This document shows positions 5,997 to 20,084 of a stretch of 57,330 nt of DNA, one piece after another. This DNA comes from Myxococcales bacterium. Its GTDB lineage: Bacteria > Myxococcota_A > UBA9160 > UBA4427. Numbering within the stretch: the first letter of the stretch is position 1; each line of letters opens with the position of its first letter. Made by a program: the position numbers and the translations under genes. The stretch spans positions 1-57,330 of the forward strand of contig JADFNE010000027.1 of assembly GCA_022563535.1 (NCBI GenBank). Reading direction: 5' to 3'. Below the pieces are notes generated by a model. That model searched no databases. It was not told the DNA's origin and saw nothing but the letters and a program-made list of their open reading frames with translations.

Positions 5997-6544
5997 GGCT
6001 GGTCATCTCCCACCCGAACGAGTTTGCGAACAGTGCGCAGCTCACAACATAAAATCGTGATATTTCTGGGGATAGAGAACACGCACACTCCGAATTAGGT
6101 CTTTCATTCTCATCGGGTCGATCGACGTGTTGCTTTAACCCCTAGTTGTGATTTTTGACCCAATTTCGTGTCGGCCACAGTGCGGTTCTGTGTTTTACAC
6201 GAATACTGGAACAGTGGAATTCAAAGGTGGCGGGGTCGCGTATTTTCAAGAATTGATTTTTCGAGAATTCCGTCGATTTCCGGAGTTCGCGCGGGCTTCA
6301 CTCCACGTCTGGTGGGACGCGCTTGCCCGGGCCGGGTTCTCGCTCGGGGAGGGGCGGGAATGGCTGCGTGATTCTTCTCTTATTGATCAAGAAAGCCAAG
6401 TAAAGTCAATGGCTTGACATACCCCGGTCCACACGCGGTTCGACCGTGGGGCGCTCAAGGTTTGCTATGTTCGCCCCGAAGTCCAGGGGACGTGCGCTCG
6501 ACGCGCGTCCTGGGTGCCAGCAAGCTGAATCCGGTGGATCTTGG
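5997..6544. other. Intergenic region upstream of TPR-zincin gene
   Basis: Some 550 bp between divergent genes, visibly more AT-rich than its surroundings in the first 300 bp. A GTG-initiated frame of 89 codons (6148-6417, plus strand) has no recognisable domain and no clear ribosome binding site. A TTGACA hexamer lies at 6414-6419, but I see no good -10 box at the right distance. The region probably holds the promoters of both flanking genes. No hairpin or repeat was recognised. Confidence 0.4.
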
Positions 6545-7582
6545 ATGCGGAACGATAAGGACAGATACTGGGACTGCCTGGATCAGGCGATGGATGCCTC
6601 CCATCGGGGTCGCACGGAAGAAGCCCTCGCCTGGCTCGACGAAGCCCTGCGCGCCTATCCCGCCGGCGCTGAGGCCCACAACGGTCGCGGTGAAATTCTC
6701 TGGGACGACGGTAGGGTCGACGAAGCGGTTCACGAGTTTGAACGCGCGATCCACGCGGATTCCAAGTTCATCGCCGCACACTTGAACCGCATCGAACTCA
6801 TGATCGAAGAACTGGGTGCGTTCGATACCGCGCTTCAGCTATGCGATGAGCTGCTATCGGGACGTCTTGATCTGCCCCGACCCGAAAAATCAGTACAGGC
6901 CGAGGTCTACTATCTCAAGTCGAAAGCGTTGTTCTATGTCGACGACCTCGAAGGGGCAATCTTCCTCGTGCGCCGGGCGGGCAAGGCTTCGGGGGATCAG
7001 CCCGCGTACTCTGCCTTCGAAGGTCAGTTGCTGTTTGAGTTGGGTCGCTACGAAGAAGCCAAACGCGTGCTCGAGCACACGGCGATCGCCGATCCAGATT
7101 CGGCCCACGTCGTCTACTACCTCGGCCTCGTGTTGGAGCATCTCGAAGATCCCGATGCCGCCGAAGCGTTCGCACGGGCCAATTCCCTCGATCCGAACCA
7201 CTACCCAATGCCGATGGAGGTCAGCCGGGAGGAATTCGAGGAGATCGTCGCCGAGGCTCTCGACAACCTCCCGCGCTCGATCCGCGAATACATCGCCGAT
7301 GTCCCAGTCTTGCTGGAAGACCTTCCGTCCCGAGAGATGATTGCCGCGGAGAACGTATCCCCTCAAATTCTGGGGCTCTTTGTCGGTTCGCCACGCACCG
7401 AAACGTTGGCGACTTCCCCGGCTCTCGATCTCGATCGCGTCCTGCTCTTCATCAAGAATCACGAGAAGATCTGCCACGATCGCGAAGAACTCATCGAACA
7501 GGTCCAGATCACCGTGAGGCACGAGATTGGTCACTACCTGGGCCTCGACGAAGAAGACATGGATCGCCTGGGCCTGGCCTGA
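6545..7582 (+). CDS. TPR protein with C-terminal minimal zincin metallopeptidase domain
   Basis: From the ATG at 6545 the product has 345 residues. The first two thirds are TPR-type helical repeats (for example EALAWLDEALRAYP and EAVHEFERAIHADSKF). The last third resembles the small zincin-like family Zincin_1 (formerly DUF1025): it ends with VRHEIGHYLGLDEEDMDRLGL, where HExxH plus a downstream Asp would bind zinc. Zincin_1 proteins are usually about 120-130 residues and stand alone, so a TPR fusion is noteworthy. An upstream ATG at 6446 adds 33 Arg/Pro-rich residues and looks spurious. Predicted cytoplasmic; proteolytic activity is inferred from the motif only. Confidence 0.8.
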   Translation: MRNDKDRYWDCLDQAMDASHRGRTEEALAWLDEALRAYPAGAEAHNGRGEILWDDGRVDEAVHEFERAIHADSKFIAAHLNRIELMIEELGAFDTALQLCDELLSGRLDLPRPEKSVQAEVYYLKSKALFYVDDLEGAIFLVRRAGKASGDQPAYSAFEGQLLFELGRYEEAKRVLEHTAIADPDSAHVVYYLGLVLEHLEDPDAAEAFARANSLDPNHYPMPMEVSREEFEEIVAEALDNLPRSIREYIADVPVLLEDLPSREMIAAENVSPQILGLFVGSPRTETLATSPALDLDRVLLFIKNHEKICHDREELIEQVQITVRHEIGHYLGLDEEDMDRLGLA

Positions 7583-7681: not shown

Positions 7682-9118
7682 ATGACCGCCCTGGTCGACC
7701 AGCTCCGAGCGATCGTGGGGCAAGAAGCTTGTCTCTCTCGGCCCGAAGAACTCTTTGTCTATGAGTGCGATGGCCTGACGCTGGACCCCTCCCTTCCATC
7801 GATCGTGGTGTTGCCGAAGACAACATCCCAGGTCGTCGAGATCGTCAAGGCTTGTCGTCAGCACGACACGCCGTTCGTCCCCCGCGGCGCGGGAACAGGC
7901 CTCTCGGGTGGAGCCCACGCCAAGTCGAACGCGGTGGTGATCGAAACCTCGCGCATGAATCGCATCATTGATGTCGATGTGGAGAATCGCATCGCACGAG
8001 TTCAGCCCGGTCTGGTGAACCTGCACTTGTCCAAGGCAGTGTCGCCTCACGGTCTCTATTACGCCCCCGACCCATCGAGCCAGCAGGTCTGCACAATTGG
8101 TGGCAACGTCGCCGAAAATGCGGGCGGCCCCCACACCCTGAAGTACGGGGCCACGACCGACAATGTGCTGTCGGTCGAGATCGTGATGCCGGACGGCGAG
8201 GTTCTGGTACTGGGACACGAATCGGGTTTCGGATCCGGCTACGACCTGGTAGGGGTCGTTACTGGTAGCGAGGGTACTTTGGGAATCGTCACGGAAGTGA
8301 CGGTCAAGTTGTTGGAAATTCCCGAAGGCATCGAAACTCTGCTCGGCATCTTTCCGGACGTCGTTTCGGCGTGTCGCGCGGTGATGGATATCATCGGCAG
8401 TGGCATGGTCCCGGCGGCGCTCGAGATCATTGATCGCAGAACCATCGAAGTTGTCGAAGACAGTGTCTACAGGGCCGGCTTGCCCCGCACGGCGGGTGCC
8501 GTACTGCTGGCGGAACTCGACGGTGCGCGCTGTGCCCTCGACGATCAGGTTGTGCGCATGCAGCAGCTCTGCCGCGACGCGGGGGCCAGCGAGGTGCGGA
8601 TCGCCAAGGACAGCGAGGAACGGGATCTGTTCTGGAAGGCGCGCAAGGGTTCGTTTGGCGCGATGGGGCGTCTCGCGCCCGATCTCTACGTGCACGATGC
8701 CGTTGTCCCCCGCGCCCAGTTGCCGGGAATCCTCGAGCAAGTGAGCGAAATTGGCGAGCGTTACGGCCTGCTGTTGGCCAACGTTTTTCACGCCGGGGAC
8801 GGAAATCTGCATCCCATCATTTCTTTTGACAGGCGCGACCCCGACGAACTCGATCGTGTGATGAAGGCCGGCCGTGAGATTTTAGAGGCCTGCCTTGCGG
8901 TGGGAGGCGTGCTCACGGGGGAGCACGGTGTCGGCACTGAAAAGCGGGAATTCATGAGTCTGCTCTTCAGCGACGCAGACCTCGACGCCATGATGAGGCT
9001 GCGGCGCTGCTTCAACCCGGATGGCTGTTGTAATCCCGGCAAGGTGCTGCCGGTTACGCGTGCGTGCGTGGAATCGAATCCGGCTGCGCGAGACGCTCTG
9101 TTGGAACTCATCCCATGA
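7682..9118 (+). CDS. glcD: Glycolate oxidase subunit GlcD, FAD-linked
   Basis: A 478-residue flavoprotein with the FAD_binding_4 loop (PRGAGTGLSGGA, about 62-73) and, at the C-terminus, the FAD-oxidase C domain with HAGDGNLHP and TGEHGVGTEKREF. E. coli GlcD is about 500 residues. GlcD is the catalytic flavin subunit that oxidises glycolate (or D-lactate and related 2-hydroxyacids) to the 2-oxoacid. The stop codon overlaps the next start as ATGA, and glcE and glcF follow directly, which makes the operon diagnosis firm. No strong Shine-Dalgarno was found before 7682. Confidence 0.95.
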   Translation: MTALVDQLRAIVGQEACLSRPEELFVYECDGLTLDPSLPSIVVLPKTTSQVVEIVKACRQHDTPFVPRGAGTGLSGGAHAKSNAVVIETSRMNRIIDVDVENRIARVQPGLVNLHLSKAVSPHGLYYAPDPSSQQVCTIGGNVAENAGGPHTLKYGATTDNVLSVEIVMPDGEVLVLGHESGFGSGYDLVGVVTGSEGTLGIVTEVTVKLLEIPEGIETLLGIFPDVVSACRAVMDIIGSGMVPAALEIIDRRTIEVVEDSVYRAGLPRTAGAVLLAELDGARCALDDQVVRMQQLCRDAGASEVRIAKDSEERDLFWKARKGSFGAMGRLAPDLYVHDAVVPRAQLPGILEQVSEIGERYGLLLANVFHAGDGNLHPIISFDRRDPDELDRVMKAGREILEACLAVGGVLTGEHGVGTEKREFMSLLFSDADLDAMMRLRRCFNPDGCCNPGKVLPVTRACVESNPAARDALLELIP

Positions 9119-10407
9119 CCGCAGCTGTGATCGAACGACTCCGCAACGCATTTGATCCCGCAATCTTCGAAGAGCCATCGGGGATCGAGGTTGATGGGTG
9201 TGAGATCATCGGCCAGTTGTCGCCTCGCGACGTCGAATCTCTATGCCAGGTGCTTGCGTTGTTGAATGAGCAACAAATTCCCGTCTTGATCCGCGGTGGC
9301 GGGACCCGCATCGGACTGGGCAACTGTCCAGATGAAGTACAGGTCTTGCTCTCGACCCGCTCTCTTTCCGGAGTTCGGCGTTTCGAGCCGGATGACGGAG
9401 TGGTCGAAGTGTCGGCGGGCACACCACTCGAGGAAGTCCGCAAAGCCGTGCTGGCCAAAGGCTGGGAACTACCCATTGACGCCGGAGGCTCGCGGGCAAC
9501 CGTTGGCGGCGCGATCGCGTGCGCGGCATACGGTCCGCGCTGCCTGGGCTTTGGGCCCGTGCGGAGAAACGTGCTCGGGCTCGAGGTCGTAAACGCAGCG
9601 GGCACACTGACCCGATGCGGGGGGCGAGTGGTCAAGAACGTTACGGGTTTCGATCTCGCCAAGATCTACACCGGTAGCCTCGGCACCCTCGGTGTCATAT
9701 CGGGTGCCTGGTTGCGCCTGCAACCGAAGCCCCGGGCCATCGAAGTGCGGGTGGCAGAATTTTCGCAAACCGATCAAGCGCTTGCCGGCGGCATTCGGGT
9801 GAGTCGCCGGAGTTCGGCGCGAGCATGCGTGTTGCTCAGTCCCGAGGTTGCGCGACGGGTCGGACTCGAACACTCGTTGGCGGCAAGTTGGATTCTACTG
9901 GCCGAGTTCGCGGGTGAAGCGTCCGAGTGTCGCCACGACGCCGCTTGGCTCGAAACTGAAATGGGCGCCAACCGGCCAAGCGTGTCCTCGGGCGACGACG
10001 CCCTCGCCATGATCGACGCAGTGCGGGATTCGCTGGTCGCGGGTCCCGAGGTCGCAGGGGTTCGAGTTCGAATCGCCGCATTGGGGACCAAGCTCGAATC
10101 GTGCATTCGCCCCCTGACCAAAGCGGGTGCGCGCATGACCGTGGATCCCGGCCTGGGTCTGGTGTTTGCGGAGCAAGCGGCGGGAAGTGGACCCGGAGAA
10201 GTCAGCGCGTTCATCGAGGTGGCGCGTACTGCGGCCCAGACGGCTTCGGGAACTCTGGTGCTGGAGTCCGTACCCAGCGAGTTCAAACGAGGCATCGATG
10301 TGTTTGGCGACGAGCTCGGCCCGGAACTGGCCCTGATGCGGAAACTCAAAGAAGAGTTTGATCCAAAGCGTCTGTTGAACCCCGGTCGCTTCGTGGGAGG
10401 GATCTGA
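9115..10407 (+). CDS. glcE: Glycolate oxidase subunit GlcE, FAD-binding
   Basis: The chosen ATG at 9115 overlaps the glcD stop in an ATGA, giving 430 residues; the frame runs further upstream inside glcD but that part is a shadow. The FAD_binding_4 region is clear (LIRGGGTRIGLG about 61-72; ELPIDAGGSRATVGG; GGRVVKNVTGFDLAKIYTGS). E. coli GlcE is about 350 residues, so this one carries an enlarged C-terminal half ending in FDPKRLLNPGRFVGG, a motif of the FAD-linked oxidase C domain. GlcE is the second flavin subunit of the membrane-associated GlcDEF complex. Confidence 0.92.
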   Translation: MTAAVIERLRNAFDPAIFEEPSGIEVDGCEIIGQLSPRDVESLCQVLALLNEQQIPVLIRGGGTRIGLGNCPDEVQVLLSTRSLSGVRRFEPDDGVVEVSAGTPLEEVRKAVLAKGWELPIDAGGSRATVGGAIACAAYGPRCLGFGPVRRNVLGLEVVNAAGTLTRCGGRVVKNVTGFDLAKIYTGSLGTLGVISGAWLRLQPKPRAIEVRVAEFSQTDQALAGGIRVSRRSSARACVLLSPEVARRVGLEHSLAASWILLAEFAGEASECRHDAAWLETEMGANRPSVSSGDDALAMIDAVRDSLVAGPEVAGVRVRIAALGTKLESCIRPLTKAGARMTVDPGLGLVFAEQAAGSGPGEVSAFIEVARTAAQTASGTLVLESVPSEFKRGIDVFGDELGPELALMRKLKEEFDPKRLLNPGRFVGGI

Positions 10408-10411
10408 GCCC

Positions 10412-11707
10412 ATGGCCGAGCTCTCCCGCCTGGATGCGATCTACCAAAAGAGCCTCGACTGCGTTCACTGCGGCCTGTGTCTGTCTGCTTGCCCCACCTA
10501 TCTCGCGACGGGACAAGAGAATGCATCGCCTCGGGGCCGCATCTATCTCATGCGCGGCGTCGTCGAAGGTAGAATTCCCTTGGCGGGACTCGCCGCCGAA
10601 GAAGCGTTCAGATGCGTAGGTTGCCGCGCCTGCGAAACCGCGTGTCCCTCGGGTGTCGAATACGGTTCCATGCTCGAGTTGATGCGTGAGGAAGTCGACC
10701 AGCAGGGGCTGCGAGACGGATGGCCGCGCAGCATCGAGCGGTTTGCGTTGCGCCAGATCGTCCCCAAACGATGGCGACTGCACGCCCTCGTCTCTCTGCT
10801 CGGTCTTGCCCAGCGCTCAGGTCTTGATCGCTTCGTCTTATCGTTGTTGTCGAAGCTTTCGCTGCTGCCCGAATCCGTGCGCCATGCCCATGGCTTCATG
10901 CCGGATATCCCCTCTCGGCGCGCTCGCCGACCGCTCCCAATCCACACTCCTGCGATCGGCGAACGGCGGGGTTGCGTCGCATTTCTCGCGGGTTGTGTGA
11001 TGCACGAGATCTTTCCGGATGTGAATCGCGCCACGGTGCGGGTGCTCGCTGAAAACGGTTACGACGTTTTGGTGCCCAGAGCCCAGGGTTGTTGCGGCGC
11101 ATTGCATGCCCACACTGGAGACTCCGAGACCGCTCATCGCCTGGCGGAGCGCAACGCCGCTGCTTTCGCTGAACATTCGATCGACGCCCTGGTGGTGAAC
11201 TCGGCCGGCTGCGGAACCGCTTTGCGAGAGGCCGAGGCGTGGATCGGCGAAGAGGGCCGCGCGCTCGCAGAAAAAGTTCGAGACGTCTGCGAGTTCCTCG
11301 ACGAAGTGGGCCTGCGATTTCCCGAGAACCCCAACGACAGACCACCGATTCGGATCTGTTACGACGATCCCTGTCATCTGATTCACACGCAAGGCGTCGC
11401 CAAGGCGCCCCGGCGTTTGCTCGAATCGCTGCCCGGAGTGGAGTTGGTCGCGCACGAAAATCCCGACCACTGCTGCGGCGCCGCCGGAATTTACAATCTC
11501 ACTCAGCGCGAACTCTCCGGACAAATCCTGGAAGAGAAGATGAACTCACTCGCACAGGTGAATCCCGACCTGATCGCGACCGGCAATCCGGGTTGCATGA
11601 TGCAGTTGCGACGCGGAGTCGAGGAACGGGGGATGAAGACCCGGGTGCAGCATCCGATCGAGTTGATCGCCGCGCTCTATCCAATCGGTCCCACGGAGTC
11701 CCGCTGA
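10412..11707 (+). CDS. glcF: Glycolate oxidase iron-sulfur subunit GlcF
   Basis: The 431-residue product has two 4Fe-4S ferredoxin motifs near its N-terminus (CVHCGLCLSACP and CVGCRACETACP) and two CCG domains further on (GCCGALHAHTGD and HCCGAAGIYN), the standard GlcF layout. It should pass electrons from the GlcD/GlcE flavins towards the quinone pool at the inner membrane face. It starts four bases after the glcE stop. With glcD and glcE it completes a glycolate dehydrogenase; glcB, glcG and the transporter glcA are not in the window. Confidence 0.95.
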   Translation: MAELSRLDAIYQKSLDCVHCGLCLSACPTYLATGQENASPRGRIYLMRGVVEGRIPLAGLAAEEAFRCVGCRACETACPSGVEYGSMLELMREEVDQQGLRDGWPRSIERFALRQIVPKRWRLHALVSLLGLAQRSGLDRFVLSLLSKLSLLPESVRHAHGFMPDIPSRRARRPLPIHTPAIGERRGCVAFLAGCVMHEIFPDVNRATVRVLAENGYDVLVPRAQGCCGALHAHTGDSETAHRLAERNAAAFAEHSIDALVVNSAGCGTALREAEAWIGEEGRALAEKVRDVCEFLDEVGLRFPENPNDRPPIRICYDDPCHLIHTQGVAKAPRRLLESLPGVELVAHENPDHCCGAAGIYNLTQRELSGQILEEKMNSLAQVNPDLIATGNPGCMMQLRRGVEERGMKTRVQHPIELIAALYPIGPTESR

Positions 11708-11738: not shown

Positions 11739-12603
11739 TCATTGCGGCGATCCGTCGCTCCCCAGCAACTCGATCTGGGCATCTCGCCATTGGGTTTCGA
11801 GATCCTGATAGATCAGCGGAAGGTAGTCGGTGCTGAGGCCCAGCTCGAGCCAGGCGTCATGGTTCAGTGGCGCCACCAGGTGCTCTCCATTGCTCCCCAT
11901 GGCCCGAGCTTCGACGAGAAATTCCGAAACGTGGAGGATGTTTGCGACCCGAGGAAAACGCTTTGTTCGGGAGGGAGTGTGATGGGCGTTGACCGCCTCG
12001 ACCAGCGCGTCGGGGAGACCCCAGAGTTGCAGGAGTTCGCGACCTACGTCCGCGTGGTCGAAGCCGAAGATCCCGCGCTCGGCTTCGGAGAGATATTGAT
12101 GATCATTGATACAGCGATTCATGAGTCGTTTGAGCTTCCGGCCGCCGCGCAGGTAGATCACGATGCTTCCGATATCGTGCAGCAAGCCCGCTACAAAGAA
12201 ACGTTCGACGTTGTCTTCTCCGCAGTGAACCGCCAGTAGTCGTGCACACACTGCGGTCGCCAGACAGTGCCGCCAATAGGATTGGCATGTCGACGAACTC
12301 GATCGAGATGTCCTCGAACATCTCGATCACACAGGTCGCCAGGGCAAGGTCGCGTAGCTGTTGGGTTCCCACCAGGGAGATGGCTCGGGAAATCGTGTCG
12401 ATTTGTCCTGGGAAGGAAAACAGAGAGCTGTTGATCAGTCGCAACAGGCGGGTGGTCAAGCCCGGGTCTTGCATCACAACCTTGGCAATCTCTTCCGATG
12501 AAGAACTCGGCTTGGCGACCACCCGGTTTACGAGTTCGAAAATCTCGGGGAGGGACTGGATCTCCGGAGTGCCTCGGACGAATTCGGCGGCGGTTGCCTT
12601 CAC
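11739..12603 (-). pseudogene. HDOD-domain signalling protein, split by a frameshift near 12280
   Basis: Two minus-strand frames make one HDOD domain. The first runs from a GTG at 12603 (VKATAAEF...) to DMP near 12283 and contains LLRLINSSLF and QLRDLALATC. The second continues, one base shifted, with YWRHCLATAVCARLL and LLHDIGSIVIYL down to 11739. Removing one A from the CCAATCC run (plus 12279-12285) restores a continuous protein of about 287 residues. HDOD proteins are non-catalytic HD relatives in bacterial signalling. The GTG overlaps the upstream stop as GTGA, supporting that start. The shift may be a real lesion or a sequencing error. Confidence 0.8.
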
Positions 12604-12941
12604 TCGGTAGCCTTGGGGCCTGTAGCACTGCATTCGCGCGCATGGTTCAGACATTCGTCGAACACCGCTCGAGCAAAATCATCGTCGAGATTGACATGGC
12701 GGAAGCGGCCGGTGATTTCTCTCTCTTGTTCTCTCGTGAGTGGCGGCAGTTCCGGAGCACAATTGTGCTCTTCAAATGAATCGTCGGTCACGTACACAAT
12801 CGGAATCAGAGCGGTCTCCAGGACTTCGAGCAAGCGATCGGTCAGCTCGGTCTTGGCACCGATCAACATGCGCCCCTGGCGATCCATGGCATCGCTATCG
12901 AGGATCATGCCGGGTGACAAATTCGTTCGAAGTACCCGCAA
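12600..12941 (-). CDS. Small conserved protein preceding the HDOD gene
   Basis: The frame is open much further upstream, but that part is antisense to folP; only the last 113 residues look real. A TTG at 12941 follows a GGGGGCAAAG stretch and opens with RVLRTNLSPGMILDSDAMD.QGRML, a pattern often seen at the start of HD-GYP and HDOD regulators (xxLxPGMxLxxDVxDxxGxxLL). The tail is charged and ends 4 bp inside the HDOD start (GTGA), so the two are translationally coupled. It may act as a separate input module for the HDOD protein. No catalytic motif is seen. Confidence 0.6.
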   Translation of the reverse strand: MRVLRTNLSPGMILDSDAMDRQGRMLIGAKTELTDRLLEVLETALIPIVYVTDDSFEEHNCAPELPPLTREQEREITGRFRHVNLDDDFARAVFDECLNHARECSATGPKATE

Positions 12942-13109
12942 TCTTTGCCCCCATCTGCTGTACGCATACACGCGCCAGAGCCTCTCGGGCCTGTCGGCGT
13001 ATCGTCTGCGGCACTGAAACTCGAAGAAGGTGGCTACTTGTTCCACGTTACCGTCGAGCGATGTCGAGTGAGTTCGTATTGGCCGAATGCCGGAGAGGGG
13101 GTAGGGTTG

Positions 13110-14027
13110 ATGTCTCATTTTGAAATGTCGGAGTGCCAGACCATGCCCAGACGATCTTCCATGCGCGCTCCAGAACTCGTGGGCATCTTGAATATCACCG
13201 AGGATTCGTTCTCGGACGGCGGCCAATTTCTCGCACCCGATCGTGCGGTCGATCACGCTCGTCATCTGATGGACAGCGGCGCAAGGCTCGTCGAACTCGG
13301 TCCCGCGTCCAGTCATCCAGATGCACAGAAGGTTGGGGCCGATCTCGAGATCTCGCGCCTCGAATCCGTGGTCGGCGCTCTGGTCGAAGCGAATATTCCC
13401 TTCGGAGTCGATTCGTTCGAAACCGCTACCCAACGTTGGTCTCTCGCCGGGGGGGCTTCGATGCTCAACGACATCCAGGGTTTTGCGGACGAGAAATTCT
13501 GGGACGAACTTGCAGATCACAGCTGCGATCTGGTGGTGATGCATTCAATCCAGGGGCGCGGCCCTGCCACCCGCGCGCCCGCACAGAAGGGGCCGATACT
13601 GGATCACGTGCTCGCCTTCTTCGAGACTCGGCTCGCCAGTCTCGAGCGGGCGGGAATTGCGCGCGAGCGAATTGTGGTGGACCCCGGCATGGGGTTCTTC
13701 CTGGGTGCAAGTCCGGAGCCATCCCTTGCGGTGCTGCGAGAGCTTTCCCGACTGCGCCGGGAGGTTGGATGCAGGGTTCTCATTTCGGTATCTCGCAAAT
13801 CGTTTCTGGGTGCGCTTTGTTCGGATCCTCGGACTGGAAGCGAGCGCCCCATTGCGGAGCGTCTGCCCGCGACATTGGCAGCTGAACTCTTTGCCGCGCG
13901 CCAGGGTGTGGATTGGATTCGAACCCACGATGTAAAGAGCCTGAGCGATGTCCTCCAGACCAGCCTCGTCCTCGAAGGCGAGTCGTTCTTCGCACCCCAC
14001 GCTCTCAATTCGGATTTGTTAGATTAA
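13110..14027 (+). CDS. folP: Dihydropteroate synthase of the Sul-like group
   Basis: From the ATG at 13110 (purine-rich GAGAGGGGGTAGGG upstream) the protein has 305 residues with GILNITEDSFSDGG (25-38), GPASSHPDA (64-72), DSFETATQR (101-109), LNDIQGF (119-125), VVMHS, DPGMGFFLG (191-199) and SVSRKSFLG (226-234). The reaction is condensation of p-aminobenzoate with the pterin pyrophosphate in folate synthesis. The segments GPASSHPDA, LNDIQGF and DPGMGFFLG follow the Sul1/Sul2 sulfonamide-insensitive enzymes, as I remember them, rather than the canonical ESTRPGA type. It is a single chromosomal copy without mobile context. Resistance is not shown by sequence alone. Confidence 0.85.
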   Translation: MSHFEMSECQTMPRRSSMRAPELVGILNITEDSFSDGGQFLAPDRAVDHARHLMDSGARLVELGPASSHPDAQKVGADLEISRLESVVGALVEANIPFGVDSFETATQRWSLAGGASMLNDIQGFADEKFWDELADHSCDLVVMHSIQGRGPATRAPAQKGPILDHVLAFFETRLASLERAGIARERIVVDPGMGFFLGASPEPSLAVLRELSRLRREVGCRVLISVSRKSFLGALCSDPRTGSERPIAERLPATLAAELFAARQGVDWIRTHDVKSLSDVLQTSLVLEGESFFAPHALNSDLLD

Positions 14028-14060: not shown

Positions 14061-15554
14061 ATGAGTCTCAACCTCGGAAGTATTCTGCAAGCGAGTTGCG
14101 CCGATCGACCTGACTCCAAGGCGCTCCGGCTGGGCGAGTTCTCGATGAGCTACGCCGAACTCGATGCGGCAGCGCGCGGTGTTGCCAGCGCCCTGGCTGA
14201 GCGCGGCATAGAGGCCAACGACTGCGTTGCGGTCTTGATTCCGAATGTTCCCGAGTTCACGATTGCCTACTTCGGCATCTTGTACGCCGGAGCGACGGTT
14301 GTTCCCATCAACGTCCTGGCCACCGCGGTCGAAGTCGACTACTTCCTGCGCGACTCGAAGGCCAAGATGTTGATCGCCCACAAGAATTTTGAAGATGTGG
14401 GGACAAAGGGTGCAGCGCTCGCGGACGTTCCCTGTGTGAGCGCCGGCAACGAGGGCGAGGGAACTCTCGCCGAGCTGATGGCGAGTTCGCCGGTCGATGG
14501 CATCTACCCCACATCACCGGACGACACTGCGGTCATCCTCTACACGTCGGGCACCACGGGAAAACCCAAGGGCGCGGAACTCACCCATTCGAACATCCTG
14601 CTCAATTGTGCAATCGTGTCGCCCAAGCTCGTGCCCGTACCCTTGGGACAGGCAAACTACCTCGCGACCCTCCCGCTCTTCCATTCCTTTGGACAGGTGG
14701 TCGTACAGAACGCCAGCATCTCCAGCGGTGGCTGCTTCAGCCTGTTGCCTCGTTTTGATCCGGGCCAGGCGCTCGAGATCATCGAGCGCGACAAGATCAA
14801 CGTGTTTGCCGGAGTTCCGACGATGTACTTTGCCATGCTGCATCACAAGGGCGATCGCAGCTACGACGTCTCGAGCCTGGAGTTCTGTTTGACCGGCGGT
14901 GCGCCGATGCCGATCGAAGTCATGAGCGCCTTCGAGAAGAAATTTGGCGTCACGATCTTCGAGGGCTACGGGCTTTCCGAAACTTCACCGATCGCGAGCT
15001 TCGGCACCCTCGGTCGACCGCGCAAAGCGGGATCCATCGGTTACCCGGTTTGGGGAGTCGAACTGCAGATTGCGGACGAAAAAGGCAAAGCACTCCCGGA
15101 TGGGGAGCGGGGCGAGATCTGCATTCGAGGGCACAACATCATGAAGGGTTACCTCGGTCGCCCCGAAGCCACCGCAGAAGCATTCGAGGGCGGCTGGTTC
15201 CATTCGGGAGACATCGGATATCGCGACGACGACGGCTGCTATTGGATCGTCGACCGCAAGAAGGACATGATCTTGCGCGGCGGCTTCAACGTTTATCCGC
15301 GAGAAGTCGAAGAGGTCCTCTATGCCCATGAAGCGATCGCGGAAGCTGCCGTCGTGGGCGTGCCCCACGAAAGCCACGGAGAAGAAGTCAAGGCCGTCGT
15401 GTCCCTGCTCGCTGGCAAGACCGCGAGCGAAAAGGAAATCATCGCCTTCTGCAAAGAGCGGCTCTCGGCTTACAAATATCCCCGCACCGTAGAGTTCGTG
15501 GACGCCCTGCCCAAAGGACCCTCGGGCAAGATTCTCAAGCGGGAGTTGCGCTGA
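14061..15554 (+). CDS. Long-chain acyl-CoA ligase (AMP-forming)
   Basis: The 497-residue enzyme has the ANL superfamily motifs in order: the phosphate loop YTSGTTGKPKG (about 163-173), EGYGLSETSP, the hinge HSGDIGYRDDDGCYWIVDRKKD, GGFNVYPREVE, and the C-terminal catalytic lysine in PSGKILKREL. It activates a carboxylic acid with ATP and loads it on CoA. AAAGGAGATCA lies 10-17 bases before the ATG, and the gene follows folP after 33 bp. The length fits bacterial FadD-like medium/long-chain ligases, but specificity cannot be read. Confidence 0.9.
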   Translation: MSLNLGSILQASCADRPDSKALRLGEFSMSYAELDAAARGVASALAERGIEANDCVAVLIPNVPEFTIAYFGILYAGATVVPINVLATAVEVDYFLRDSKAKMLIAHKNFEDVGTKGAALADVPCVSAGNEGEGTLAELMASSPVDGIYPTSPDDTAVILYTSGTTGKPKGAELTHSNILLNCAIVSPKLVPVPLGQANYLATLPLFHSFGQVVVQNASISSGGCFSLLPRFDPGQALEIIERDKINVFAGVPTMYFAMLHHKGDRSYDVSSLEFCLTGGAPMPIEVMSAFEKKFGVTIFEGYGLSETSPIASFGTLGRPRKAGSIGYPVWGVELQIADEKGKALPDGERGEICIRGHNIMKGYLGRPEATAEAFEGGWFHSGDIGYRDDDGCYWIVDRKKDMILRGGFNVYPREVEEVLYAHEAIAEAAVVGVPHESHGEEVKAVVSLLAGKTASEKEIIAFCKERLSAYKYPRTVEFVDALPKGPSGKILKRELR

Positions 15555-15650: not shown

Positions 15651-16007
15651 TTACTTGTTCACGTCATCCAGTGTGGCCGCTGCGTCCTCGGCGCGTCCAC
15701 GTGGTTCGCGATGTTCTTTGCGGCGCGATCGCATGTGTCGCACCTGTTGTTTGAAATTTTCTAGTGCGTCGTGAAGTGCGCGCTCCATCTTGGGTGCGCT
15801 GCGACTGGCGACGATCTCTTGTCCTCGAGCATCACAGGTGATTTTGACTTCGTGCTCGGTGTGGCCCCAGTGGCGGGATGGGTTTCCGGAAATTCTGATA
15901 TCGAGGAGGTCGTTGTGTCCTTGGTCTGCGAGGGCGTGAATGCGCTCCTCGATTTCAGCTCGTTGTTTGTCTCCTACGAATTTGGTCTGGTGCCAATGTA
16001 TTTGCAA
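15651..16007 (-). CDS. hpf: Ribosome hibernation-promoting factor, HPF/YfiA family
   Basis: The 118-residue product begins MQIHWHQTKFVGDKQRAEIEE and continues with the beta-alpha-beta fold of S30AE proteins (HEVKITCDARGQEIVA and then ERALHDALENFKQQVR). It has the short-HPF length without the C-terminal dimerisation domain of long HPF; instead there is a charged tail. Members bind the 30S decoding region and silence ribosomes in stationary phase. It stands alone, with an AGGAGA ribosome binding site upstream. It is not next to rpoN, where hpf often sits. Confidence 0.82.
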   Translation of the reverse strand: MQIHWHQTKFVGDKQRAEIEERIHALADQGHNDLLDIRISGNPSRHWGHTEHEVKITCDARGQEIVASRSAPKMERALHDALENFKQQVRHMRSRRKEHREPRGRAEDAAATLDDVNK

Positions 16008-17673: not shown

Positions 17674-18912
17674 ATGCGCCTGGTTCTGTACACCGGTAAG
17701 GGCGGAGTGGGGAAGACTACGACGGCCGCCGCGAGCGCGCTGTGGAGCGCCTCCCAGGGTAAGCGGACTCTGCTGATTTCGGCGGATTCTTCACACAGTC
17801 TGTCCGATGTGCTCGATCGAAAGATCGGCCCCGAACCCATCGTCATCACTGACAACCTGAAGGCGGTCGAAGTCGACTCTCGGGTCGAGATGGGTCGCCA
17901 TTGGGGCAGCATCAGCGACTTTCTCGTTTCGCTGTTTCGCTACCAGGGAATCGAAGGCGTGGTGGCAGAGGAACTCGCCCTGCTGCCGGGTGCCGAAGAA
18001 CTCACGACCCTGCTCGCGGTAGATCGGTTTGCCCAGTCGGGCGAATTCGATTTTGCCGTCGTCGACTGCGCCCCGACCGACACCACATTGCGACTGCTGG
18101 CACTGCCCGATGTGGCGCACAGCAGCCTTCGCTTGTTGCTCAAGATCCAGCGTGCGCTCGCGGGGGTCATGACTCCCCTGGCGCGGAACTTTGTCTCGAT
18201 GCCACTACCGAGCGCCGATGTGTTCGCCGAAGCCGAGGCGTTGCTCTACGCCAAGTTGCGAGCATTGCGGGCCCGAATCATTGATCCACAGACGAGCGTT
18301 CGTCTCGTTGTCACCACGGAGAGAATGGTGATTGAAGAAGCGCGGCGGGCTTTCACCGACCTATGTCTTTTTGGGCTCCGCTGCGACGCCGTCGTGGTCA
18401 ATCGCCTGTTGCCCGAAATCGCTATGCGCGAGCCGTTCTTTCGCGAGTGGGGTGAAGTTCAAGAAGAGCGGCTGGCGGAGATCAGCGAACTATTCGCTCC
18501 GCTCCGATTGCTCCCCGCCGTTCTCGGAGAGGAAGAAATCATCGGCCCGGAGTCGCTGCTGGATCACGGTCGTCGACTCTTTGCCGACTGCCGACCCGAC
18601 GACGTGCTCTCGAGTGCCCGCGCGATTGAATTTCACAGCGAACAGGGTCGCTACTCGGTTTCGATCCCGCTCCCCGGCGCGACCCTCGACAGTGTCGAGA
18701 TCACCAAGGTGGAGGGCGAACTCCTGGTCCGGACAGCATCAGTGTGTCGTGCACTGAGGTTGCCGCGCCGCATGGCAACGCTCGAGGTGACCGAGGCACA
18801 TCTGCGCGATGGGATGCTCTCGGTCTTCTTTCGCAGCGAGCAGGCCCAGGGTGACGTCGATGATGCCTGCGGCCCCCATTCCCCCACGCCGGCGCAGGGG
18901 CCTGATCCGTGA
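17674..18912 (+). CDS. ArsA/Get3-family ATPase, first of a tandem pair
   Basis: The 412-residue ATPase opens with the deviant Walker A motif GKGGVGKTTT (8-17) carrying the signature lysine of the SIMIBI class. A switch I variant (ADSSHSL, about 37-43, where DTAHSL is usual) and switch II VVDCAPTDTTLRLL follow. After about residue 315 it has a beta-rich tail (SVEITKVEGELLVR, LRLPRRMATLEV) like the HSP20-like domain of bacterial ArsA homologues. I see no CxxC dimer zinc site or arsenite Cys triad. It probably targets membrane proteins or acts in the envelope, not in arsenic export. The stop overlaps the next start as GTGA. Confidence 0.85.
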   Translation: MRLVLYTGKGGVGKTTTAAASALWSASQGKRTLLISADSSHSLSDVLDRKIGPEPIVITDNLKAVEVDSRVEMGRHWGSISDFLVSLFRYQGIEGVVAEELALLPGAEELTTLLAVDRFAQSGEFDFAVVDCAPTDTTLRLLALPDVAHSSLRLLLKIQRALAGVMTPLARNFVSMPLPSADVFAEAEALLYAKLRALRARIIDPQTSVRLVVTTERMVIEEARRAFTDLCLFGLRCDAVVVNRLLPEIAMREPFFREWGEVQEERLAEISELFAPLRLLPAVLGEEEIIGPESLLDHGRRLFADCRPDDVLSSARAIEFHSEQGRYSVSIPLPGATLDSVEITKVEGELLVRTASVCRALRLPRRMATLEVTEAHLRDGMLSVFFRSEQAQGDVDDACGPHSPTPAQGPDP

Positions 18913-20084
18913 GGGTTCTCCTCCATATGGGCAAGGGCGGAGTCGGAAAGACGACGCTTTCATTGGCGACGGCGCTGGGTTGTGCACGCGCGGGGCACCG
19001 GGTGATCGTGTTGTCGACCGACACCGCTCATAGCCTGGGAGACGCTCTTGGCCGCCCGGTTGGCCCGAAGTCCGTCGACATTGCAGAGCGCGTGGTCGCG
19101 CGCGAAGTCAGCGTGTTCGAAGAACTCTCGCACTCATGGTTCGAAATTCAAAACTGGCTGCGTGAGCTCTTGCGCGATGAAGCCGACGAGATGGTGGTCG
19201 AAGAACTGCTGGTCTTTCCCGGTTTGGAAGAGCTCATGGCTCTGCGAGCCGTGTGCGAAGTCGAAGCCAGCGGTGAATTCGACGTCTGCGTCGTGGACTG
19301 CGCGCCAACCGGTTCGGCCCTGCGCATGCTGCGCTATCCAGACGTGCTCGAGATCTTCATGGAGCACTTCTTCGAGTTCGAGCGAAAGGGCGCCCAGCTC
19401 CTCCGCCCTCTGCTGAATGGTCCTCTACTCAGCGGCATCAACGCTGGGCGCTTGTTGCCGAGCGAAGAGTTTTTCGTCGCATTCGAGCAGCTCTATCGCG
19501 AAGTCTCGGATGTGCGTAAGATTTTGATGGACAACACACGAACGAGCGCGCGACTCATCGTCAACCCGGCCCAGGTCGTGATCGCAGAATCTCGGCGAAC
19601 GTACGCGTATCTCGGCCTATACGGTGTTGCGACCGACGCGGTGCTGATCAATCGGGTTTTGCCGAGTTGTGCCGCGGATGGCTATTTCGCGCGCTGGGCG
19701 GAACGCGAAGCAACCGGATTGGCCGAGATCGCTGAATCGTTTCCGATTCCCCAATTCACGGCGCCCCTACACAATCGAGAGATCATCGGAATTCCCGCCC
19801 TCGAACAGCTAGCGAGCGAAGTCTACAACGCGCGAGATCCCGCCGAGGTCATGACCCGTGCCCGGCCATTTCGCGTGCGAAAACAGGGTCGGCAGACGCT
19901 GTTGGAAATTGATCTGCATGGAATCGAAAAAGACGAGATTGAGCTTCTCAGCACCGGAAGCGAGCTTCATCTACGGGTGCGCGATGTCGCGCGGCGTATT
20001 TCTTTACCCTCGTCGATCGCCGGCAAGCCGATTGCGCGTTCTCATTTCTCGCAGGGGGTGCTGCATGTTCTTTTCTGCGACTGA
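18909..20084 (+). CDS. ArsA/Get3-family ATPase, second of a tandem pair
   Basis: Starts with GTG in a GTGA overlap with its paralogue. The 391-residue product repeats the architecture: GKGGVGKTTL (8-17), a canonical TDTAHSL switch I, VVDCAPTGSALRMLRYP, and the C-terminal HSP20-like segment (LLEIDLHGIEKDEIELL, RRISLPSSIAGK). Tandem fused-domain ArsA pairs are known in mycobacteria and green sulfur bacteria and may form heterodimers. The first copy has the altered switch I and this one the standard one, which suggests division of labour. The client is unknown. Confidence 0.85.
   Translation: MRVLLHMGKGGVGKTTLSLATALGCARAGHRVIVLSTDTAHSLGDALGRPVGPKSVDIAERVVAREVSVFEELSHSWFEIQNWLRELLRDEADEMVVEELLVFPGLEELMALRAVCEVEASGEFDVCVVDCAPTGSALRMLRYPDVLEIFMEHFFEFERKGAQLLRPLLNGPLLSGINAGRLLPSEEFFVAFEQLYREVSDVRKILMDNTRTSARLIVNPAQVVIAESRRTYAYLGLYGVATDAVLINRVLPSCAADGYFARWAEREATGLAEIAESFPIPQFTAPLHNREIIGIPALEQLASEVYNARDPAEVMTRARPFRVRKQGRQTLLEIDLHGIEKDEIELLSTGSELHLRVRDVARRISLPSSIAGKPIARSHFSQGVLHVLFCD

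Follow-up and report, generated by a model that had tools for sequence, protein, structure and literature searches.

A Sul-type dihydropteroate synthase as the only DHPS found in a Myxococcota draft genome, with an empty ancestral folP slot

The locus and its neighbourhood

The window, i.e. the whole stretch of 57,330 nucleotides analysed here (contig JADFNE010000027.1 of the Myxococcales bacterium assembly GCA_022563535.1), carries a gene for a dihydropteroate synthase (DHPS) of the Sul type (FolP*), which is listed with its motifs and neighbours in Table 1. The translation is free of internal stops, and the four motifs reported in the first-pass annotation were all located in it. Met1, Met12 and Met18 are the candidate start codons, and the start is uncertain since the conserved core sets in only at about residue 22, after a segment whose length varies among the relatives. 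An ORF on the complementary strand (12600-13544), antisense to part of the gene, is conserved in genome G003 only outside the overlap (59%, 113 aa), so that the overlapping part is probably not coding. The promoter scan gave nothing above chance.

Table 1. Coordinates of the Sul-type gene, its motif codons and the neighbouring genes in the window
Feature	Position	Strand	Remarks
glcD, glcE-like and glcF-like glycolate oxidase genes (upstream)	7682..11707	+	Conserved beside the gene in G001
HDOD/HD-type regulatory gene	11739..12654	-	Read as two ORFs that overlap in different frames; also kept in G002 and G003
Sul-type (FolP*) dihydropteroate synthase gene	13110..14027	+	305 aa; sole DHPS found in the genome
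GPASSHPDA codons	13299..13325	+	Residues 64-72; Sul loop 2 (canonical GGESTRPGA)
LNDIQGF codons	13464..13484	+	Residues 119-125
DPGMGFFLG codons	13680..13706	+	Residues 191-199; two-residue insertion, helix alpha-6; pattern match 13680-13700
SVSRKSFLG codons	13785..13811	+	Residues 226-234; active-site Lys230
Acyl-CoA ligase	14061..15554	+	Begins 34 bp past the Sul-type stop codon; adjacent in G001 and G005
Ribosome hibernation factor (HPF/YfiA-like)	15651..16007	-
Two tandem ArsA/Get3-type ATPases	17674..20084	+

In genera g1 and g3 the Sul-type gene is flanked by the block that comprises the acyl-CoA ligase, HPF and ArsA genes, with glcF or the HDOD gene on the opposite side in g1, and this neighbourhood was common to five genomes of the two genera. 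The acyl-CoA ligase gene is possibly co-transcribed with the Sul-type gene; it is missing from the corresponding region in G002 and G003. Each of the two ArsA/Get3-type ATPases, which are kept beside the Sul-type gene in both genera, carries a C-terminal HSP20-like domain. Elsewhere in the window (6446-7582), TPR repeats are fused to a zincin-like metallopeptidase domain.

The GC content of the gene (0.60) is close to that of the window (0.61), and its GC content by codon position is like that of its neighbours. The scan of the window proteins (most of the larger ORFs, not all) revealed no transposase or integrase, and the single tRNA is 11 kb distant from the gene. The plasmid matches were sul1, sul2 and sul3 (44-54% identity). 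The clade that the protein shares with Sul1-3 (see below) might raise the suspicion that a mobile gene for sulfonamide resistance was captured here recently, but the low identity to the plasmid genes, the recurrence of one neighbourhood in diverged species and the matching base composition rule out a mobile or recent acquisition, which we regard as hardly credible. The description of the gene as a resident chromosomal copy in an ordinary metabolic block, devoid of mobile context, was thus borne out.

Family assignment, active site and phylogeny

In profile searches the protein passed the dihydropteroate synthase model TIGR01496 (232.2 bits, curated cutoff 162.6) and the Pfam family Pterin_bind (PF00809; 2.7e-57, 194.7 bits, cutoff 25.5). 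Its best NCBIfam scores were 267.8, 240.8 and 214.2 bits for Sul2, Sul3 and Sul1, respectively, under the exception cutoffs of those models (575, 475 and 600 bits, respectively), and the E. coli-type model PRK11613 gave 140 bits. On the Sul4 model, with which only membership in the DHPS family is shared, it scored just 86.9 bits, below the canonical FolP of the sister genera (195.6 bits).

The window protein was aligned with Sul1-3, with the FolP of E. coli and with one canonical FolP from its own family. The catalytic residues N28, D32, D101, N120, D191, K230, R271 and H273 were invariant in this alignment. The canonical loop 2 (ESTRPG) and DPGxGFGK are absent from the window protein, whose helix alpha-6 reads DPGMGFFLG against DPGFGF--GK in E. 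coli FolP. By residue counting in the alignments, Phe196 corresponds to Phe178 of Sul1 and Phe179 of Sul2. In the AlphaFold model (pLDDT 90.1, pTM 0.87) residues 195-198 form a short helix; the nearest solved folds were Sul3 (8scd) and Sul2 (7s2k), and Sul2 and Sul3 were also the best sequence matches among solved structures.

The motif is common to 13 relatives in the same family, and a scan of the phylum with a 21-base motif pattern gave matches in 23 of the 379 genomes and none with the reversed control pattern, which together argue that the motif is not a product of chance. One of the 23 matches (in G082) lies outside any DHPS and was discarded. Motif-bearing sequences of other phyla were sampled by a scan of named genomes, among the matches listed. 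In reference genomes, a contig of Sandarakinorhabdus encodes a protein nearly identical to Sul1 and a contig of Actinobacillus minor one identical to Sul2; the contigs are short, and the two genes are probably genuine mobile sul genes.

A tree of 67 proteins was built, with a second version of 226 columns from which the four motif blocks had been removed. Leptospira and Parvibaculum were represented by stand-ins, a Leptospirales protein (L038) and an alphaproteobacterial one (L036), respectively. A branch with support of 100/99 separated all Sul-type sequences (Sul1-3/FolP*) from the canonical FolPs of the same family, order and class; it was retained after removal of the motif columns, so that clustering by the motif alone is ruled out. 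Model scores, motif alignment and both trees agree with the first-pass assignment of the protein to the Sul type rather than to the housekeeping FolP type, and the protein did not take a firm place among canonical FolPs. It grouped with its genus at 100/99, and this group was joined to genus g3 less firmly when the motif columns were left out (91/50). The g10 proteins grouped with L036 in the two tree versions (99/95 and 99/93). The gene of L036 has glmM and ftsH as neighbours, which resembles the Rhodobiaceae arrangement in PMC6335563. A single clade of the g1, g3 and g10 Sul-type proteins was rejected (AU test, p=0.0017), and one acquisition for the whole family was thereby ruled out. Two Bacteroidota Sul-type DHPSs (L034 and L035, from Lewinella and a Bacteroidia MAG) grouped with Sul3 and the Leptospirales protein (99/93 and 97/93), which possibly bears on the origin of sul3.

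The window protein thus has the motif, the catalytic residues and the clade in common with the mobile Sul1-3, and differs from them by an N-terminal extension of about 20 residues, by an insertion of 7 residues after SRKSFLGA and by its resident chromosomal locus, where it serves as the only DHPS found. At 44-52% identity to them in the alignment, it appears to be a cousin of the mobile sul genes and not a demonstrated source. With the canonical FolPs (E. coli b3177 and the ftsH-linked FolP of the sister genera) it shares the DHPS family, the barrel fold, the catalytic residues and the single-copy status, whereas it is 29-30% identical to them, belongs to a separate clade and is encoded outside the ftsH operon.

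In the Sul enzymes the phenylalanine equivalent to Phe196 was shown to keep sulfonamides out, and with glycine in its place the enzyme binds the drug and is sensitive again (PMC10328974). Phe196 is expected to act as in Sul1-3, blocking sulfonamides sterically while p-aminobenzoate is still admitted, and the bacterium would then be intrinsically insensitive. An enzyme which makes dihydropteroate and is nevertheless sensitive, its motif being kept for another reason such as affinity for p-aminobenzoate, is quite unlikely. The key position can vary, for a Sul-type DHPS of the same class (L207, G342:C1:23862-24644) reads DPGMGLFLG, with leucine replacing the phenylalanine and the insertion retained. 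Every feature of Sul1-3 tied to insensitivity is, however, conserved in the window protein, and in E. coli the sulfamethoxazole MICs measured with two chromosomal FolP* proteins, from Leptospira and Parvibaculum, were 512 and >512 mg/L, against 8 mg/L for the control (PMC6335563). The leucine variant offers a natural test of the phenylalanine mechanism.

Gene complement and the ftsH-cdaA slot

The genome is a draft of 4.63 Mb in 147 contigs (97.9% complete). PF00809 matched two of its proteins, the Sul-type DHPS and the methionine synthase MetH; a second, canonical folP, for which the first-pass annotation had advised a check, was not found by this search in the draft, and the ancestral slot of that gene was empty as well. 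The folK, folC and DHFR genes are all present.

The compared genomes of the class are nearly all drafts. The Sul-type motif occurs in 21 of the 91 (10 of 53 genera), and in none of the 91 did two DHPSs score above the TIGR01496 cutoff. The second matches in the g10 genomes and a few others were all below this cutoff and were fragments or a degenerate paralogue. The paralogue is represented by L214 and L215 of g10, DHPS-like proteins with about 100 bits on TIGR01496 and without the SRK and DPGxGF motifs; similar low-scoring matches occur in G007 and G326. A DHPS match was absent in the drafts G040, G305 and G328 (91, 95 and 77% complete, respectively), which reflects either folate auxotrophy or sequence that the drafts lack.

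In four canonical genomes of the same family (G004, G009, G013 and G014) the gene order is ftsH-folP-cdaA-(ybbR-like)-glmM, where the ybbR-like gene is named by position only, and ftsH and cdaA are 876-883 bp apart. Eight Sul-type genomes (that of the window, with 65 bp and no folP, together with G001, G002, G003, G005, G012, G022 and G028) have 26-84 bp between these two genes, and neither folP nor a remnant of it was detected in the gap of any of the eight. The slot is thus empty in the genus of the window and in two other genera. The Sul-type genes sit away from it, at unrelated loci, the g10 neighbourhood being different from that of g1 and g3. The simplest reading is that at least two replacements occurred within one family.

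Vertical descent from a class ancestor that had both DHPS types, one of which was kept in each lineage with no late horizontal transfer, is an unlikely account of these data. Both types are indeed scattered over the class, and the Sul-type proteins of family f12 branch near the group of the window. Such descent is at odds, however, with the lack of any genome holding two full DHPSs, with the different neighbourhoods and the rejected common clade of the g1/g3 and g10 genes, and with the grouping of the g10 type with an alphaproteobacterial protein.

Proposed explanation and meaning

We consider the gene to encode a housekeeping DHPS of the FolP*/Sul branch, sulfonamide-insensitive by analogy, that was gained at a new site with clean loss of the ordinary folP (probability of roughly 0.8 for this reading as a whole). 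Judged from its sequence, the resident enzyme would condense dihydropterin pyrophosphate with p-aminobenzoate and so provide the 7,8-dihydropteroate from which folate is made, with helix alpha-6 carrying the extra phenylalanine-containing segment of its branch. The Sul-type gene would have been gained, presumably by a horizontal route, in the ancestor of the window genus and g3, and the ordinary folP would then have been cleanly lost from the ftsH operon, in what is the probable order of events.

Leptospiraceae and Rhodobiaceae have earlier been found to carry FolP* on their chromosomes (PMC6335563), and the window gene is therefore another member of that kind: it is likewise chromosomal, carries the two-residue Sul insertion, falls into the Sul1-3 clade and is free of mobile elements. 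It differs by its lineage and neighbourhood and by an ancestral ftsH-cdaA slot that is demonstrably empty. The origin of the sul genes has been tied to chromosomal FolP*, the direct ancestor being stated as unknown, and hundreds of sequences in the databases were reported to contain the GFF motif (PMC10328974). No published description of the present FolP* reservoir and of its clean gene swap was found, and the main text of PMC6335563 makes no mention of Myxococc-, Deltaproteobacteria or Bacteroidetes. What is new is a further lineage with FolP* as its only DHPS, together with direct evidence that the ancestral slot has lost its folP.

The broader proposal, that in this class Sul-type DHPSs repeatedly replaced the ordinary FolP, each time with one enzyme left and with clean loss from the ftsH operon where this was checked, is advanced tentatively and may well not hold. 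If it is true, enzymes that exclude sulfonamides would have been favoured by a natural pressure, e.g. a natural mimic of p-aminobenzoate, long before the drugs came into use, and as a reservoir the class would equal in diversity the Leptospiraceae and Rhodobiaceae, from which the sul genes have been proposed to stem. Sul-like matches in environmental metagenomes can be housekeeping genes and not acquired resistance, which should be borne in mind as a warning. A lineage with FolP* only and close relatives with the ordinary FolP at the ancestral locus form a natural before-and-after pair, with which it can be asked what FolP* costs or gains its host and whether the insensitivity evolved for another reason.
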